A DNA stretch of 64,000 nt from Mesodorylaimus sp. YZB2_4 (taxonomy: Eukaryota > Nematoda > Enoplea > Dorylaimida > Dorylaimidae). The notes below the pieces were generated by a model. The model did not search any database, was not told the origin of the DNA, and was given only the letters and a program-made list of their open reading frames with translations. The translations under genes and the position numbers were made by a program. This document shows positions 10,137 through 63,700 of the stretch, piece after piece (positions within the stretch are counted from its first letter, which is position 1; each line of letters begins with the position of its first letter). The DNA is taken from the NCBI GenBank assembly GCA_030248295.1, contig JASANH010000073.1, positions 186,001-250,000 of the forward strand, written 5' to 3'.

Positions 10137-11475
10137 GTACCGTGATAAGTTACTAATAAGATTAATCAGTTACTGGCTGATAAGATTAATCAGTTACTGG
10201 CTGATAAGATTAATCAGTTACTGGCTGATAAGATTAATCAGTTACTGGCTGATAAGATTAATCAGTTACTGGCTGATAAGATTAATCAGTTACTGGCTGA
10301 TAAGATTAATCAGTTACTGGCTGATAAGATTAATCAGTTACTGGCTGATAAGATTAATCAGTTACTGGCTGATAAGATTAATCAGTTACTGGCTGATAAG
10401 ATTAATCAGTTACTAGCTGATAAGATTAATCAGTTACTGGCTGATAAGATTAATCAGTTACTGGCTGATAAGATTAATCAGTTACTGGCTGATAAGATTA
10501 ATCAGTTACTGGCTGATAAGATTAATCAGTTACTGGCTGATAAGATTAATCAGTTACTGGCTGATAAGATTAATCAGTTACTGGCTGATAAGATTAATCA
10601 GTTACTGGCTGATAAGATTAATCAGTTACTGGCTGATAAGATTAATCAGTTACTGGCTGATAAGATTAATCAGTTACTGGCTGATAAGATTAATCAGTTA
10701 CTGGCTGATAAGATTAATCAGTTACTGGCTGATAAGATTAATCAGTTACTAGCTGATAAGATTAATCAGTTACTGGCTGATAAGATTAATCAGTTACTGG
10801 CTGATAAGATTAATCAGTTACTGGCTGATAAGATTAATCAGTTACTGGCTGATAAGATTAATCAGTTAATGGCTGATAAGATTAATCAGTTACTGGCTGA
10901 TAAGATTAATCAGGTAATGGCTGATAAGATTAATCAGGTAATGGCTGATAAGATTAATCAGTTACTGGCTGATAAGATTAATCAGTTAATGGCTGATAAG
11001 ATTAATCAGTTAATGGCTGATAAGATTAATCAGTTAATGGCTGATAAGATTAATCAGTTAATGGCTGATAAGATTAATCAGTTACTAGCTGATAAGATTA
11101 ATCAGTTACTGGCTGATAAGATTAATCAGTTAATGGCTGATAATATTAATCAGTTAATGGCTGATAAGATTAATCAGTTACTAGCTGATAAGATTAATCA
11201 GTTACTGGCTGATAAGATTAATCAGTTAATGGCTGATAATATTAATCAGTTACTAGCTGATAAGATTAATCAGTTACTGGCTGATAAGATTAATCAGTTA
11301 ATGGCTGATAAGACTAATCAGTTAATGGCTGATAAGATTAATCAGTTACTGGCTGATAAGATTAATCAGTTACTAGCTGATAAGATTAATCAGTTAATGG
11401 CTGATAAGATTAATCAGTTACTGGCTGATAAGATTAATCAGTTACTGGCTGATAAGATTAATCAGTTACTGATAG
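10137..11475. repeat. 24-bp satellite, about 55 copies
   Basis: Unit GCTGATAAGATTAATCAGTTACTG, given here in two parts: GCTGATAAGATT and AATCAGTTACTG. The first 30 or so units are almost identical (TTACTG). The 3' third mixes TTACTG, TTAATG and TTACTA variants, so homogenisation is stronger on the left. TGATTAATCTTATCAG is partly self-complementary. The period is a multiple of three, so long open frames with an ADKINQLL octad appear; these are artefacts of the repeat, not genes. Confidence 0.95.
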
Positions 11476-11918
11476 GAAAGCGGCTGCCAGTTGTTAAACG
11501 CAACCTGACAATTTCCCCGGATAAAAGGAAAGTGATAAGGACTAACAGAATATAAGGTCCAAATGTTGTATAGTAGGGTATCATGGGTGGTCAGATCAGG
11601 TCTGACAGCCCTAATTATATTTATTCAACACTTTAAGTTACCTCCTGCCAAGACCAAGCTCTTAGTGGTACCCCTGCCAGCCAGGGCACTCAGGCTTGGG
11701 ATTCCCGAGTATACCTGCCATTTTGTCTTATATTTTAACCAGAATCCATCACATTGCCCCCCTTCGATGACTTAGAAAGTCAAGTCAAGTTTGCTGATTG
11801 ATTTGCTTTCACTGCCAGTCATTGGAGGACACTTTAGGGGGACCCTCAATCGATATTTTCAGGATCAATCTCAGAATAGATGACTAGGTATAAGGTAGAA
11901 ACAGAAAACAAAACATTT
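11476..11918. other. Spacer after the satellite, no gene seen
   Basis: Unique-looking sequence between the 24-bp satellite and the tRNA-derived fragment. The 70-codon open frame at 11563-11775 has no support. Confidence 0.35.
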
Positions 11919-36905: not shown

Positions 36906-39890
36906 ATGAGCAGCACGGACATGGCATTTTTCGATACTAGTCAAGTTCAGTTTATCGAATGGGATATGTTGGATAAACGAAAATATATCCCTCTGAATGT
37001 TTGTTCGACGGCGGCCGTACGCGCATTGCTTTATCCTCTAACCGTGGTCAAGACTCGAATTCAAGTGACGAAACGAAGTGCCTATCGGAGCACAACGCAC
37101 GCATTGTTCTCAATTTTCAAACACGAAGGAATTCGAGGATTATACAGCGGGTATCTAATCAGCACTTTCCAGGTAAGATGCCGTGTGATTTGTGATACCC
37201 AGTGTTGGTTGCGGGGGGACTTTGGGTATCTCATCGTCAGGAGAAGAATTACTTTGCTGCTTTGAGGTGTCGCCCTAGCTAGCATGCAGGTGTACAGGCC
37301 GCCCCGGTGGTGTGCAAGGCATGTCTAGGAACTATCAAGTTGTCTCTGCGCCTCGCTGGCCTGGCGGTGGGTGACACCCTTCATGCCTGCAGGAGTGGTC
37401 TCGAATCCGGGTTCCCTCACGGGGCGACAAAGCGACACGCGCGCTCTTGCCCGGCATGCATCCCGGGTGGACCCTAGTCGATGGCAAGCCCCTCCCCTGC
37501 ACCGGCAAGGACGGGTTCAAAAATGCGGGTACAGTCTGTCCATTTTTCAGGTCTTCTCCGGTTTAGTTTACACGTTAACTTACGAGGGCACACGACATTT
37601 TCTCTCCAAGAACAACATGGCGTCTAGCAATTCAGTACGTGCCTCGTTGGGCGGTGGTCTGGCCTCGGCCACGTGTCTCCTGTTGGTCGTGCCGTCGGAC
37701 ATCGTCTCGCAGCACATGATGGTATTCGAACGACACCGCGCAATGCCCCAGTCGACCCCCAATTCGTCCCCTCGACCGACCGTCGTCCAACAGCGACACG
37801 TCGACTCGTTGAATATACGACAGTTGCTACAACGCGAACCCAGTGGCCGCATTTGGTGGCTGATAACACGCGAGATCTATCGTCGAGATGGACTTATCGG
37901 ATTCTATCGAGGATATCCCGCCTCGCTCCTCTGTTATGCACCCAGCAGTGCCGCACTTTGGGCCTTCTACGTCGAGTTCGCGAGTAAGGCCCATTGCACG
38001 TCCTTTGCCGATCCAGGCAGCTTGACCCGTCAGGATGATGTTTCAGCCGCTGAGTCCTGTAACCAGCGCACACAGGCGTGTTTTTACGACTGCACCTGCA
38101 CCTGCGACTGAAACATCACCAAGACGGGTGAAGACTCGTTTGTGCTGGCGACCGATCTTTCTCAGATTTTCATGTTCTAGGATTACTGTAATCTGTTCCT
38201 GAACATCGGGGAGCAAGTATAAATGAACCAGTCTAGGCGCCTGTACTCGCTCCTCGATCAGTGTCCCCGCGTTTTTTCCTACCAAGTCCAAAAAATCGAC
38301 GATTCCCCCCTTAAATTTTGAACAGTGTTCTAATCGATGCAGTTTTTATCGGTGAATCCGAAAATGAAGTTTAAATTATAGTTTAAACGCGATTTTGATC
38401 TGTATTTCCTCGTTTATGAAAGTAGTTTTTTAAAGAGCCCACTCAATAATATTCAGATTATTGGCTATGTCTGATTTATTGATCAGATGTCAAATTCGTG
38501 TAGTCGATTGACCATTGTGACAGTCGATCGACGAATATGATCACTTTGATCAGTTGATTGACCGATATCATCAGTTGATTGACCGATATCACCAGTTGAT
38601 TGATCGATATCATCAGTTGATTGATCGATATCATCAGTTGATTGATCGATATCATCAGTTGATTGATCGATATCATCAGTTGATTGATCGATATCATCAG
38701 TTGATTGATCGATATCATCAGTTGATTGATCGATATCATCAGTTGATTGATCGATATCATCAGTTGATTGATCGATATCATCAGTTGATTGATCGATATC
38801 ATCAGTTGATTGATCGATATCATCAGTTGATTGATCGATATCATCAGTGGATTGATCGATATCATCAGTGGATTGATCGATATCATCAGTTGATTGATCG
38901 ATATCATCAGTTGATTGATCGATATCATCAGTTGATTGATCGATATCATCAGTTGATTGATCGATATCATCAGTTGATTGATCGATATCATCAGTTGATT
39001 GATCGATATCATCAGTTGTCGATCGATAAATCAACTGATCATATCGATTAGAGTAGCTGATCATGTTGATCACCCTATCATGCCAAACAGAGGATTGATC
39101 GGCCGGTCATCCGCCTATTGGTCTGGCATCAATCGATCGGCATTTTTATCGATCGTATCGGTTCACATGGGCTGTATGCTATCAATATTTTCAATCGTCT
39201 CTTCTCTAATCGATCAATCGATCTTATCGCATCTGTTATCGTGAATTTCGAATCATGTAGGATTGGTGTCGGGCACTGAGGCCCGTTTGTGCGAATAGCA
39301 GAAAACGTTTTTCCCTGGGACTGCACCTTTCCACAGTAGACGCAGGGGCAGAGTCCCCAGGACAGTGCGCTCTGGATCGGGGCTACAGAGACAGTATAAA
39401 TGTGCTTTTGGTCAAAATCAAACGAGCCCGGACGAATGTCCTTTTCAGGTCTTTTCTATCAACTGCTGCCCAGTTCGTCGCACATTTTAGCCCACGCCCT
39501 GGCAGCGCCTTGTTCCGGTGCAGTCGTTGCTGTCCTTTTCAACGCACTAGATTTATTCAGGGCAAATTTGCAGGTGAGCCTTTTGATCTTGGCCGCACCC
39601 TTAATACCATTAAAGGGTATCCCCAGAGGCGCGGGTTCGATTCCCGCTCACGCCTTAACTTTTGGTTTTCCCCAGAATAGCAACAACACCACTGGTTTCA
39701 GGTGCAAAGGAATTCGTGGTCGGACACGATACGTTGTCTTTGGCGGGAGGAACGGTGGCGAATATTCACCAAGGGTCTTCCAACTCGTCTGGCCATCACG
39801 CCCACGACCACATTGCTTATGCTCGGTTCGTACGAATGCGTTAAACGGTACAGCGTCCATTCCGAATTGCGGACAATCGTTCACTGGTGA
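36906..39890 (+). CDS. SLC25A44: Mitochondrial carrier, SLC25A44 homologue
   Basis: Six-helix inner-membrane carrier; the vertebrate protein takes branched-chain amino acids into mitochondria. Four exons (36906-37172, 37551-37983, 39449-39573, 39702-39890) close in frame at 337 aa. The N-terminal IEWDMLDKRKYIPLNV is the family opening. Three carrier repeats follow. Their signatures are degenerate, as in the family: PLTVVKTRIQV, PSDIVSQHMMV, and NALDLFRANLQ, where Asn replaces the signature Pro. The last exon (FTKGLPTRLAITPTTTLLML, SYECVKRYS, then a C-terminal HW) is recognisably SLC25A44. AATAAA at 39964 lies 74 bases after the stop. Intron 2 (1.46 kb) holds a 21-bp satellite. The gene converges on EPRS, whose stop is 270 bases away. 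Confidence 0.9.
37330..37500 (+). repeat. Dispersed repeat J, copy 1 (tRNA-tail-containing)
   Basis: Shares CCCTTCATGCC, TCTCGAATCCGGGT, CTTGCCCGGCATGCATCCCG and GACCCTAGTCGATGGCAA with 49560-49740. The TCGAATCC word within it is a decayed B-box. It lies in SLC25A44 intron 1. Confidence 0.7.
38024..38131. repeat. F-family inverted repeat in SLC25A44 intron 2
   Basis: ACCCGTCAGGATGATGTTTC near 38027 is mirrored by GAAACATCACCAAGACGGGT near 38111. Between the arms is GTAACCAGCGCACACAGGCG, as in the F-family copy at 21676. Confidence 0.65.
38548..39020. repeat. 21-bp satellite, about 22 copies
   Basis: Unit ATCATCAGTTGATTGATCGAT, given here as ATCATCAGTTG plus ATTGATCGAT. Central units are nearly identical; edge units vary (GACCGATATCACC, GTGGATTG). 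The unit contains the palindrome ATCGAT and near-palindromic TGATCGATATCA. The 21-base period gives repeat-encoded open frames on both strands. It fills part of SLC25A44 intron 2, and degenerate GATCGATC-rich flanks extend to about 39240. Confidence 0.95.
39605..39665 (+). repeat. tRNA-tail fragment in SLC25A44 intron 3
   Basis: AGAGGCGCGGGTTCGATTCC followed by CGCTCACGCC is a T-arm with B-box. Intron 3 is only 128 bases, so this fragment makes up about half of it. Confidence 0.55.
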
Positions 39891-57786: not shown

Positions 57787-60700
57787 TTAGATTGCACAAA
57801 CATACAAAATGGCAATATCCTTATCGCACCCGCGCCCTTTGCTATTCGATCCAATGGAGTAAAGGCGTGCAGCAGAGTCAGCGCCTTCCACCAAGACCAT
57901 ACCTCTCGGATTATTGAATGGCAAGACGCTGACAACATTTCGGAATGTCCGATCTTGAAGATGGAATCGTTGAAGATGCTTGTTCTTTCCATTTCTGCTG
58001 TCCCCATCGGCCACGTAGACATAACCATTCGAGTCAGTGCATATACTCCGAGGCCACACGACTTGTCCAACGGGGGCGAGGGAGTATCTGATCGATTCAT
58101 CCTTGAATCCGTCTGGAGATTGGGTGAGAGTGAACAAGTATTCTCCAGTTTGCAGGCTCCGAACATCCACAGTGTGCCTTTTCTGGTCACCATGATCGCT
58201 CACTATCAAATAGTCCCGATCGTCATCGACCATCAAGTACCAGATATTTGATGGTTGCTTGAAGACGTGGCAGCTGGATTCGAGAGAATTCAAATCAATT
58301 CTCCAAACGCAACTCGATTGATTGGCTGTGTTTTTATCCAAATATAATGTAGATAGAAGGAGCCAAGCCTGTAAATATTTCATATAAATTTCTCTCGCTT
58401 TTTTGGTGGAGAAAGCTGTGTTGTTAATTTCAATTTGACTTTAACAGAGACTAAAAATTTTTTTGACCTTGACTTTGACTTTGACTTTGACGCAGCAAAA
58501 ATGCTTAATTTTGACATTGACATTGACATTGACTCAAAATTGACCTTTTGCAAAAATTTCAAAAAGGCTCCATAGACACACCCTTTGTCCCAACAGGTAG
58601 CTCGCCTTTGTCCCTCCTTTTCAAAGCCTTCGCCAAGTCTGGAGGTTGGCTACGGCCGAGCCTGTCTGGACCTGTTCGGATTGGATATCCGATGCAATCC
58701 AAAACATCACCATCCGGAAATTCAGATCGGATTTTCCGATCTGAACTTTTCGATCCGACCTTCTAAGCCGAAACTGTTTGCAATCAAACAGCTGTTGCGC
58801 AGTTTTCTCCAACCTTTTTAGTGTGATGAGTGAGGATATCAGTAATGCATGGATGCTTTCTTTCTTCTGCTCATGATTAGGGTTACAAGTCAACTTCTTC
58901 TTATTATTATTTGAGACCAGATAAAACAATTGAAAATCCGTTCCTGGGTGCAAAAGAAAGCTTTCTGCAAAATATCAGAGGCGTTTGGCCAGCTGATCAG
59001 CGATGGCCTAAAGTCCTGAGAATTTTTGAATTCTTGTATGGTAAGGAGCCTGAGCGTTGAGAAAAACATGCATGGCTTTTTCCAAACCTCGCTTTTCGGT
59101 TAAGCTTCCAACGCTCGGGTTTTGGGTAAAAAATCCAAAAGAATGAAAAAATCCCGGGACTTCAGGCTTTGGCCATTGCTGGCCGATTGATCAGATGCCA
59201 CTGATATTTTTCAGAGTGTTTTTCTTGCACCGAGGAATGAATCGCAATTTTTGTTTTGCTGAGTTTAACGCAACAGTTGGCGAGGTTGCCTTCTCAGATT
59301 TTGCAAATGTTTGATGTCAGATTACTGAGTGGAGCTTTCAAATTTGCTGAACTTAATCTTGAGTAGAAGGTTGCTTTGTTAAAAAAGGAAAACCAAGAGT
59401 CAAGCACCGTCTACATTGTAATTCTTTTTCATATTACCATGAATTTGGTGGACCATCTTGCTTCACCAAAAGGGCATACAAAATCTTTCTAATATTTACG
59501 ACTCATTTCCGCTTCCTCCATATTCAATAAAACGTCAGTTCTGTCCTGCTACTTTTTGGTACGTGGTTTTGGTTCGATACTTATCTGAATGCTTAGTGGC
59601 ACAGGAAAAAGCAGGACTCAATCTTCTTAAAAAAATTCAGCAAAAAAGAAGCAAAACCCACCTTAGTACAGTTGTATACAAGTAGTATAGGAGCGATTGG
59701 ATCACCGTTACTCACCCAGGTTACCCAGGGTGGGTGAGGTCAAGACAGCCCACCCTTAGCCAATGTACAGTACTGGCTCACATTAATGACCCAGCCAAGT
59801 ATAGGAGCGAGCAGGTCACCGTCCATCCTCCAAGTCCACCAGGGTGGAGGAGGTCAAGACAGCCCACCCTTAGCCAATGTACAGTACTGGCTCACATTAC
59901 TGACCCAGCCAATGACCATATCGGCGGTACTCACTGTCCATACCCAGTATCATCCATGTGATTACATGATTGACACATGTCAAATCCAAATCCAGCTTAA
60001 GTGACGCTTCTATGAAGCGGCGAGGTTTTTTGAATTTCCCGCCTTCACGTATAAAGGGCCTGTTATGTCTGCTATGTTGCGCCAATTTGAAAGTGACAAC
60101 AACATGTCTTCGAAACCTACACCGGAGCAGCTCGGAGCTGCTCATTTTGTTGCAGGAGCAGTTCCTCCTTACTGAGGAGCAGCTCGGAGCTGCTCATTTT
60201 GTTGCAGGAGCAGCTCCTCCTTGGTGGGGAGCAGCTCGGAGCTGCTCATTTTGTGGCAGGAGCAGCTCCTCCTTGGTGGGGAGCAGCTCGGAGCTGCTCA
60301 TTTTGTTGCAGGAGCAGCTCCTCCTTGGTGGAGAGCTGCTCAGAGTTGCTCATTTTTTGGCAGGAGCAGGTCCTCCTTGGTGGGAACTGCTCCTCCTTGG
60401 TGGGGAGCAGCTCGGAGCTGCTCATTTTGTTGCAGGAGCAGCTCCTCCTTGGTGGGGAGCGCAGCACTTTGGTAGCAGGAGTAGCTCCTACTTTGTGGGG
60501 ACCTTTCCATTTTATGAGGTGAGCGGCAAATGTGAGAGCATACACCATGCCAGTTTCCTACAAATCCAGTCAGGACGTTCACTTTTTACCTTAGGCGGCT
60601 TTACTTCATGGTCCATGTTGCACTTATAAGCCTACAACCCCGCTCATATTAGCGGGGGAGCTGCTCATGTTAGCGGGGGAGCAGCTCATGTTAGCGGGGA

Positions 60701-63700
60701 GCAGCTCATGTTAGCGGGGGAGCAGCTCATGTTAGCGGGGGAGCAGCTCATGTTAGCGGGGAGCAGCTCATGGTAGCGGGGGAGCTGCTCATGGTAGCGG
60801 GGGAGCAGCTCATGTTAGCGGGGAGCAGCTCATGTTAGCGGTGGAGCAATCACTGCCCTGATGCCTTCATATATTCTTCCTCATATGAATGTGAAGAGAG
60901 GGCTAACTGCCAAGTGACGATAAAAGGCAACAGTTTTGTTGCATCTGCCAGTTTCATATTTTTTCGAGTTGGCGAATGGTTCGGTTTGGATTACTCTCGA
61001 AAATGGTCAACGATAACGATAGCTCGTCTGGCGAGAATGGCGACGATGAATGCACAAAATGTGACAAGACATTTTGTTCGAAATATTCATTGAGGCGTCA
61101 CATGAAATCTGTTCATGGAAAGCGAGCGCGGACCAGTACTGTTGATGGTAGCAAGGATGGTGATAGCGAAGAAGCGGATGGCGGCGGAGACAATGACGAT
61201 GACGATGAAATAGAACAACCAATAAAATTTGGCGGACATTCTTGAAACGGATCTTGCGTAATTGGAGGGAAGATGATGATTTTCAAATGCCAGAAACGGA
61301 AGATGATTTTCTAAACCTCAAAGATCAAGTCCGAGAGGAGTTGTACAGTCAAACGGTCAAACTTTTGAACGACTACAATGCACTGGTCGATTCTCCAATA
61401 TATAAAAAGATTCGAGTCACTGAAGATCGCCTATTACAATTGATGGATGACGAAGATAGTGATGATCAGCAAGAAGCCTTCCAAACGGCCTTCGATCAGA
61501 GGAAAACATTGCTATTGAATTTTTTGAATGACAACCTAGATGTAGTTGAAAATTATGCGGAAACATCAGACAGTGGAGAGGAAGATGGAGAAGAAGAAGA
61601 AGAGGACAGTGATTAATCCACCCAACTGATTCTATAAAACTACTGTGCACAAACATTAATACCTTGATATTCAATCATGATCAATATTTATGTTTCTTTT
61701 AATAAATAGCTACTCACCTGCTAACATGAGCAGCTCCCCCGCTAACATGAGCAGCTCCCCCGCTAACTTCACATTCATATGAGGAAGAATATATGAAGGC
61801 ATCAGGGCAGTGATTGCTCCACCGCTAACATGAGCTGCTCCCCGCTAACATGAGCTGCTCCCCCGCTACCATGAGCAGCTCCCCCGCTACCATGAGCTGC
61901 TCCCCGCTAACATGAGCTGCTCCCCCGCTAACATGAGCAGCTCCCCCGCTAATATGAGCGGGGTTGTAGGCTTATAAGTGCAACATGGACCATGAAGTAA
62001 AGCCGCCTAAGGTAAAAAGTGAACGCCCTGACTGGATTTGTAGGAAACTGGCATGGTGTATGCTCTCACATTTGCCGCTCACCTCATAAAATGGAAAGGT
62101 CCCCACAAAGTAGGAGCTACTCCTGCTACCAAAGTGCTGCGCTCCCCACCAAGGAGGAGCTGCTCCTGCAACAAAATGAGCAGCTCCGAGCTGCTCCCCA
62201 CCAAGGAGGAGCAGTTCCCACCAAGGAGGACCTGCTCCTGCCAAAAAATGAGCAACTCTGAGCAGCTCTCCACCAAGGAGGAGCTGCTCCTGCAACAAAA
62301 TGAGCAGCTCCGAGCTGCTCCCCACCAAGGAGGAGCTGCTCCTGCCACAAAATGAGCAGCTCCGAGCTGCTCCCCACCAAGGAGGAGCTGCTCCTGCAAC
62401 AAAATGAGCAGCTCCGAGCTGCTCCCCACCAAGGAGGAGCTGCTCCTGCAACAAAATGAGCAGCTCCGAGCTGCTCCCCACCAAGGAGGAGCTGCTCCTG
62501 CAACAAAATGAGCAGCTCCGAGCTGCTCCTCAGTAAGGAGGAACTGCTCCTGCAACAAAATGAGCAGCTCCGAGCTGCTCCGCTGTAGGTTTCGAAGACA
62601 TGTTGTTGTCACTTTCAAATTGGCGCAACATAGCAGACATAACAGGCCCTTTATACGTGAAGGCGGGAAATTCAAAAAACCTCGCCGCTTCATAGAAGCG
62701 TCACTTAAGCTGGATTTGGATTTGACATGTGTCAATCATGTAATCACATGGATGATACTGGGTATGGACAGTGAGTACCGCCGATATGGTCATTGGCTGG
62801 GTCAGTAATGTGAGCCAGTACTGTACATTGGCTAAGGGTGGGCTGTCTTGACCTCCTCCACCCTGGTGGACTTGGAGGATGGACGGTGACCTGCTCGCTC
62901 CTATACTTGGCTGGGTCATTAATGTGAGCCAGTACTGTACATTGGCTAAGGGTGGGCTGTCTTGACCTCACCCACCCTGGGTAACCTGGGTGAGTAACGG
63001 TGATCCAATCGCTCCTATACTACTTATACAGTTGCCACATACTGGAACCGAAATCTTTTACGAAAATGTGAGGAAGTGGCTCAGCAATGTTTTAAAACGA
63101 CATCAGATCACGCGATTTGAAACGATATACAGGAATTGCTAGGAAAAACCTCGTAAAGTCTTGGTCTTGGATTTAAATAATGCGTGCACAAAATGTCAAA
63201 ATTTGGTTGACTTCTCACGAGATTTTTGACTTTGCCAGGGGCTCCAAAAACTTTTTGACTTCGACATGGACTTTAACTGAGGCCAAAAGTTTTTTTGACA
63301 TTAATATTGACTTTGACGTAATTTTGAAAACATACGATTTAGACTTTGATATTGACGTCACTTGCAACACTAGTCACCCCCCAAGTGTTATTTGCAAAAG
63401 GAAGACAAATGAATTGTTAATTCTGAATCTTACCATTTTCTCACTGTACGTAAATCTTCTCGCAATCCCCCAGCTTGGGTCGCAGTCAATCTGAACAGCT
63501 GGTTTCCAGTCAACGTTTTTTCTGTCTCGATCTGTTTGATAAGGGTAAATGAAAATGGATTTGTGATCAGGATCCAATTTCTTAACAGATACAGAGAACA
63601 GAGCTATCAAATATTTGTGTTGAGGAACTAACATGGATTCGGCAGATAAAGTCTTGGGTGCAGAAATGAGCATGACATCGAGACAATATTGAGAATTTAT

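Follow-up and report, generated by a model that had tools for sequence, protein, structure and literature searches.

What kind of mobile element is the foldback structure in this DNA of the nematode Mesodorylaimus sp. YZB2_4, and whose enzymes move it? The window, that is the whole stretch of 64,000 nucleotides analysed here (contig JASANH010000073.1, positions 186,001 to 250,000), contains a 3344-bp element in which two inverted arms of 1216 and 1258 bp enclose an 870-bp loop with a zinc-finger gene. An earlier note, made from the letters alone, had proposed a new foldback family that carries or has captured a DNA-binding protein gene, with arms built as in the Drosophila FB elements. A family standing alone or of FB-like origin was not supported, as Polintons/Mavericks of this genome have the same ends, a target-site duplication (TSD) that is likewise 6 bp long, and the same terminal ~300 bp. 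The element is very probably a non-autonomous Polinton/Maverick satellite with foldback arms, which would be inserted in trans by Polinton enzymes and which carries a selected protein of its own.

The element starts with AGTAGT and ends with ACTACT, and TATACA is found directly outside both ends. In vertebrate Mavericks, (AGT)2//(ACT)2 has been described as the commonest end motif, together with perfect 6-bp TSDs (PMC8097293); the window element has the same end motif and a TSD of the same length. When the genome (a 145-Mb assembly of 1067 contigs) was searched for further copies, as the earlier note had advised, arms and loop were found together at seven other fetched loci, with loops 95-99% identical, so the structure in the window is not due to chance. 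Both ends were read in 17 loop-gene copies (window, C57, C150, C173, C8, C43, C101, C476, C11, C37, C104, C127, C48, C250, C12, C287 and C336). The window copy and most of the others carry AGTAGT at either end, and a perfect 6-bp direct repeat stood outside AGTAGT in 14 of the 17. Copies are inserted at many sites. In addition, the left flank (to 59680) and the right flank (from 63025) of the window copy match empty sites at C31, C91, C34 and C127, where the match coordinates of the two flanks overlap by exactly 6 bp, as expected where an empty site keeps one copy of the target. These four paralogous sites identify TATACA, which the earlier note had only described as a bounding repeat, as a true TSD. 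C10 fits the same pattern with a left match one base short; other contigs in both flank lists (C188 and C77 among them) are uninformative, since their matches end before the junction. The flanks themselves (59081-59680 and 63025-63400) are a dispersed repeat, with 48 and 45 genome matches of roughly 70-89% identity besides themselves.

These sites also bear on whether one arm is a false mirror of the other, made by the assembly. Such errors may occur in this assembly: at C287:90430-94820 the flanks outside the element mirror each other, and this locus is probably an assembly palindrome. The window copy, however, does not look like a mirror-image error, since its flanks differ, bear the TSD and match head to tail at the empty sites, and since its arms are unlike in repeat number. 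Moreover, 13 other copies have TSDs of their own. An artefact at the window locus is hardly credible.

The link to Polintons extends beyond the end motif. The outer ~300 bp of the element recur at 90-95% identity on long enzyme-bearing elements of the same genome. This end (type A) is present at both termini of a 15.0-kb element (C225:61308-76302, TSD CCGATT) and was also found next to an integrase piece at C655, C418 and C921, the last two of which have a candidate capsid gene there as well. The promoter-like motif TATAAAGGG inside the shared end was likewise found in Polinton ends that were read (L012, L013 and L022). The long inverted arms of nested tandem repeats would by themselves suit a foldback element of the Drosophila FB type (Mutator-related) or the Galileo type (P superfamily). 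FB elements, though, make 9-bp TSDs, and 14 of the 17 copies here have one of 6 bp. The ends, too, equal those of Polintons, and the frames read in copies with these ends showed no transposase gene of the Mutator or P type. Membership in the FB/Mutator group was rejected on the TSD and the shared ends, and we give an origin of either type practically no credence. At C313:3000-18500 (L018, L019), several type-A-like ends, about 76-80% alike to those of the window, share one outer flank, TTCGAAACAAGTC or a close variant of it, which suggests the duplication of one inserted locus.

A second, quite different outer ~400 bp (type B) stands on the same core, which consists of the 52-bp and 21-bp repeats plus the loop gene, at C11, C37, C104, C127 and elsewhere. 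Type B ends, too, adjoin integrase and candidate-capsid genes, at C222, C569, C724, C678 and C750, and there the distance from the end to the integrase piece is 2.70-2.83 kb. In the copies compared, the core begins at one and the same point behind both end types, with CATGTC(T/A)TCGAAACC (window and C57 for type A; C11 and C37 for type B). In trees of the two end types, satellite and Polinton rows did not separate, and each tree has three label changes. In the type-B tree, which was built on ends with the host flanks trimmed, the Polinton end of C678 grouped with the satellite end of C127 (support 98/99), and the starred branches force at least two changes. We read these trees, together with the mosaic ends of C476, as a sign that satellites and Polintons have traded terminal repeats, with recurrent formation of the satellite as a possible alternative. 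As a separate observation, ARAGORN called a tRNA-Gly (ccc or tcc) in the type-B repeat at L044:488-561, L045:760-833, L055:416-489 and L059:48-121. Calls were made in four of seven type-B satellite end pieces versus none of five type-B Polinton ends, and a similar stretch is present in L051, a Polinton.

Among the candidate helpers, C225 encodes on one strand polymerase-B pieces in which sequences resembling motif A (DANALY), motif B (GNSSYGK) and motif C (DTDS) were recognised by eye. The other strand encodes integrase pieces and then a chromodomain (E=1.6e-8), as well as a P-loop ATPase (AAA_22, E=4.6e-4, below the cut-off) and a 461-aa frame that is a candidate capsid by length and place only. 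The two modules face the centre, in agreement with the layout described as usual for vertebrate Mavericks (PMC8097293). No polymerase B or integrase frame was found in the 3.3-kb element, which is thus not an autonomous Polinton. Genome-wide, 62 matches to PF03175 were obtained, compared with none in 14 control genomes. Elsewhere, the 461-aa frame has at least one relative, with 49% identity (the only one among 6735 candidates, and found again among the 8000 to which a second scoring was limited), and no relative in viral contigs. Within the genome it has 102 matches and the integrase piece has 119, in several divergent groups, and by these counts the genome carries a heavy Polinton load.

Some Polinton-type ends enclose other genes. 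A 3.0-kb element with type-A ends and the TSD GCCGTG carries a frame with a double-stranded-RNA-binding domain (L014:2959-3471, C59:375458-375970; R2D2, E=9.4e-5; Loquacious, 2.1e-4). This frame has 73 genome matches, many of them on contigs with a candidate capsid gene (C225, C906, C730, C382, C316, C410 and C320), and we take it for a Polinton accessory gene that may counter RNA interference. A 235-aa membrane-protein-like frame that has no Pfam match lies just inside a Polinton type-A end, behind TATAAAGGG (L022:2641-3345 and L020:8969-9673).

The loop gene encodes a protein of 204 aa, counted from the ATG used. Besides a single C2H2 finger it has a basic patch, and it is acidic in the middle and in the tail. 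The finger (PF00096, 27.1 bits versus a cut-off of 25.2) is the sole domain above cut-off, which bears out the remark in the earlier note that the gene matches no known transposase. The 870-base loop, the C2H2/acidic frame and the AATAAA described there are all present; in the window copy, however, a small-indel frameshift splits the gene in two, so "intact-looking" is true of the structure and not of the gene. Several other copies have a single 204-codon frame. Genome-wide, 55 matches to the loop protein were merged by hand into 43 loci, and 19 of these have a full-length match without an internal stop (one of them beginning at residue 3). Within this genome a normal host gene locus was rejected on the basis of the 55 matches, the loop gene being dispersed together with the element. 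Since each terminal-segment search scored the best 40 candidates, the presence of ends is counted within that range: they were found within about 4 kb on both sides of 17 of the 43 loci and on one side of 10.

The gene was intact in 10 of 13 copies examined, and their variants (14 synonymous, 8 replacement) compare with synonymous and replacement sites in a ratio of 1:4.17 (p=6.7e-6). L009 and L011 alone, both found by their arms, gave 8 versus 5 variants (p=0.001). Judged by these variants, the loop gene shows purifying selection. The broken frames in the window copy and several others would suit a plain deletion derivative, that is an internally deleted, passively spread pair of Polinton ends with a fragment of a host zinc-finger gene that does nothing for the element, and non-autonomous derivatives are common among DNA transposons. 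Yet replacement changes are depleted, 19 of the 43 loci still hold the full-length frame, and the gene and the repeat arms travel together with either type of end; we therefore consider this explanation unlikely.

For the loop protein, 183 candidates drawn from 5.8 billion proteins yielded no relative at E<=1e-3, and of 136 pattern-matching stretches in viral contigs none was confirmed. A match to Elongin_A (E=0.089) was disregarded. Conservation of the gene within the element and the absence of a match at E<=1e-3 are what one would expect of a new foldback transposon that moves autonomously, with the C2H2/acidic protein as a transposase or recombinase of a novel kind. But a protein of about 204 residues with one finger, acidic low-complexity stretches and no recognised catalytic domain is a poor candidate for such a role, and the ends and TSD length are those of the integrase-bearing Polintons of the same genome, which makes this explanation very improbable. 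Apart from these copies, C789:13060-13760 (L072) holds a truncated fragment of the zinc-finger gene (95% over 365 bp) about 2 kb from a candidate capsid gene; the fragment continues into sequence that six other queries did not match. Hypermutation in C221, suspected from TGA-rich matches, was rejected, as the copy is 95% identical at the DNA level with many small indels.

The arms have the architecture of foldback elements, being long, inverted and built of internal tandem repeats around a short loop. Three main inverted blocks align at 98-99% (59677-60384 with 62321-63028, 60124-60785 with 61816-62477, and 60704-60896 with 61767-61959), in line with the near-identical arms of about 1.2 kb that had been noticed before. 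The surplus of 42 bp on the right had been put down to two extra 21-base units; by the block offsets, however, the right arm has two more 52-bp units (+104 bp), while its 21-bp array is shorter by a block of 62 bp. The nested palindromic units were also confirmed. The pattern GGAGC(A/T)GCTC, in either orientation, occurs at 32-112 positions per locus in the 14 loop-bearing loci read, at 19 in L021 (an arm, with no loop in the piece read), at 1-5 in L014, L031, L033 and L035, and at none in the Polinton loci L012, L013, L022 and L027.

Arms of one element are 97.6-100% alike over a 330-bp comparison of the ends (window, C57, C150, C173, C8, C43 and C101), and arm ends are mostly closer to their own partner than to any other end; C476 and the left end of C150 are exceptions to this closeness of partners. 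An outer 114-bp tandem duplication is present in both arms of the window copy and missing from all seven other loop-bearing copies fetched. The simplest cause would be that one arm was copied from the other, which supports the arm-to-arm copying that the earlier note had considered.

Several observations weigh against the satellite reading. The 6-bp TSD fails at C12, C287 and C336 (3 of 17), and 16 of the 43 gene loci have no end nearby among the best 40 candidates per end search. The left end of C150 is nearer to the C57 copy than to its own right end, C476 has mosaic ends, many tree forks are weak, and the type-A tree is compatible with one origin of the satellite ends. Six of the ten intact copies tested for selection had been picked as best protein matches, a choice that favours conservation, and the other four by way of their arms. 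As for the helpers, the polymerase and the integrase were identified from motifs and from Pfam scores below threshold: the C225 polymerase matches PF03175 at E=0.033, and the C724 integrase frame matches rve at E=0.094 and has no match in the PDB. None of the 62 PF03175 matches lies in C225, C655, C418 or C921, and the 461-aa candidate capsid has no match in Pfam, PDB or PHROGs. Finally, the reading rests on sequence, with no movement, transcript or particle observed.

On balance, a satellite that spreads by borrowing Polinton enzymes is probably the right description. The protein-primed polymerase of a Polinton would copy it from the AGTAGT ends and the integrase would insert it in trans, and it may be packaged in the particles of the helper. 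Terminal repetitions are held to permit the jumping-back step of protein-primed replication (PMC8097293). The long arms would arise and stay alike through pairing between both ends of a single strand, each serving as template for the other while the element is replicated. The TATA-like TATAAAGGG in the shared end would drive the satellite gene, and its C2H2/acidic product would bind DNA, possibly the arm palindromes, and raise satellite copying or regulate expression of the helper or the satellite. Helper dependence, packaging and the role of the zinc-finger protein are what we infer from this arrangement. A further-reaching version, which we put forward tentatively and think rather doubtful, would make the element a true satellite virus of animal endogenous Polintons. 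Polinton proteins would both replicate and package its hairpin-like DNA; it could change helpers by exchanging complete terminal repeats (type A and type B) at one fixed point, and its C2H2 protein would act on the palindrome arrays of the arms so that it out-replicates the helper or brings it under control.

Coordinates of the foldback element and its parts in the window
Feature	Position	Strand	Basis
Left TSD copy, TATACA	59675..59680	.	adjoining repeat and empty sites
Whole foldback element, AGTAGT...ACTACT, 3344 bp	59681..63024	.	sequence and inverted match
Left arm, 1216 bp	59681..60896	+	inverted match
Outer 114-bp unit, two in tandem, left arm; private to the window among 8 loop-bearing copies	59684..59912	+	
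Terminal segment common to Polintons of the same genome (type A end)	59798..60102	+	
TATAAAGGG, promoter-like motif inside the shared end	60050..60058	+	
Array of 52-bp units with GGAGCAGCTC palindromes, left arm	60124..60460	+	
Array of 21-bp units, left arm	60642..60848	+	
Loop, 870 bp	60897..61766	+	
Zinc-finger gene, first piece: C2H2 finger, basic patch, acidic stretch	60976..61245	+	
Zinc-finger gene, second piece, other frame: acidic tail; joined to the first in several other copies	61242..61616	+	
AATAAA, candidate poly(A) signal	61701..61706	+	
Right arm, 1258 bp	61767..63024	-	
Array of 21-bp units, right arm	61815..61959	-	
Array of 52-bp units, right arm	62217..62581	-	
Terminal segment common to Polintons, right copy	62603..62907	-	
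Outer 114-bp unit, two in tandem, right arm	62793..63021	-	
Right TSD copy, TATACA	63025..63030	.	adjoining repeat and empty sites

Elsewhere in the window, two long frames of short tandem units (10869-11555 and 38476-39073; MADKINQL... and MISINQL.../STDDIDQ...) are probably coding-like minisatellites. Genes of the Srx family, a nematode chemoreceptor family, were also found (E=1.6e-17 and 5.3e-13). An Rfam scan of the 64-kb window gave no match at the gathering threshold.

How does this element compare with known systems? The foldback elements named below have been tied to cut-and-paste transposases. With Drosophila FB, Galileo, Tetris and the nematode Tm1, as these are described (for Galileo, PMC3688188), the window element shares long inverted arms with nested tandem repeats; it differs from them in its 6-bp TSD and Polinton ends, and no Mutator- or P-type transposase was seen. 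In Galileo, the THAP domain of the transposase is reported to have several binding sites within the arm repeats (PMC3688188), which by analogy would be the nearest precedent for a zinc-finger protein that binds arm repeats. With Polintons/Mavericks it has in common the (AGT)2//(ACT)2 motif, a TSD of 6 bp and, within its own genome, the terminal ~300 bp of elements that bear polymerase and integrase. In contrast to them, it measures 3.3 kb instead of about 15 kb, lacks polymerase, integrase, ATPase and capsid genes, and has foldback repeat arms and a zinc-finger gene of its own.

Repbase or Dfam may contain entries for non-autonomous Polintons. In the literature searched, which lacks key papers on nematode Polintons, no title or abstract opening described a foldback-shaped Polinton derivative with a selected gene of its own. 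The Tlr elements of Tetrahymena, which share the idea of a non-autonomous Polinton relative, were once proposed to be such derivatives and later re-classed as a separate old lineage (PMC4028283); they are described there as encoding their own capsid protein, whereas the window element encodes none. Nematode Mavericks with the cargo genes wosp and krma, known from a meeting report (PMC10680173), resemble it in having a nematode-type host and Maverick ends with extra genes, but the window element is missing the core enzymes.

Virophages parasitise giant viruses, and the proposed dependence of the window element on the replication proteins of a larger related element would be analogous to that of virophages and other satellite viruses. 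It differs from these in its supposed helper, an element integrated in an animal genome, and in the lack of a known particle. If the satellite reading is true, replication of the ends would account for the near-identical arms of a foldback element that rides on a virus-like transposon with protein-primed replication. As the element is non-autonomous yet carries a selected gene, and as one core occurs with two unrelated types of end, the switching of helpers and the conflict between parasite and host would become testable within one genome. It would also suggest that animal Polintons have parasites of their own, as giant viruses have virophages.

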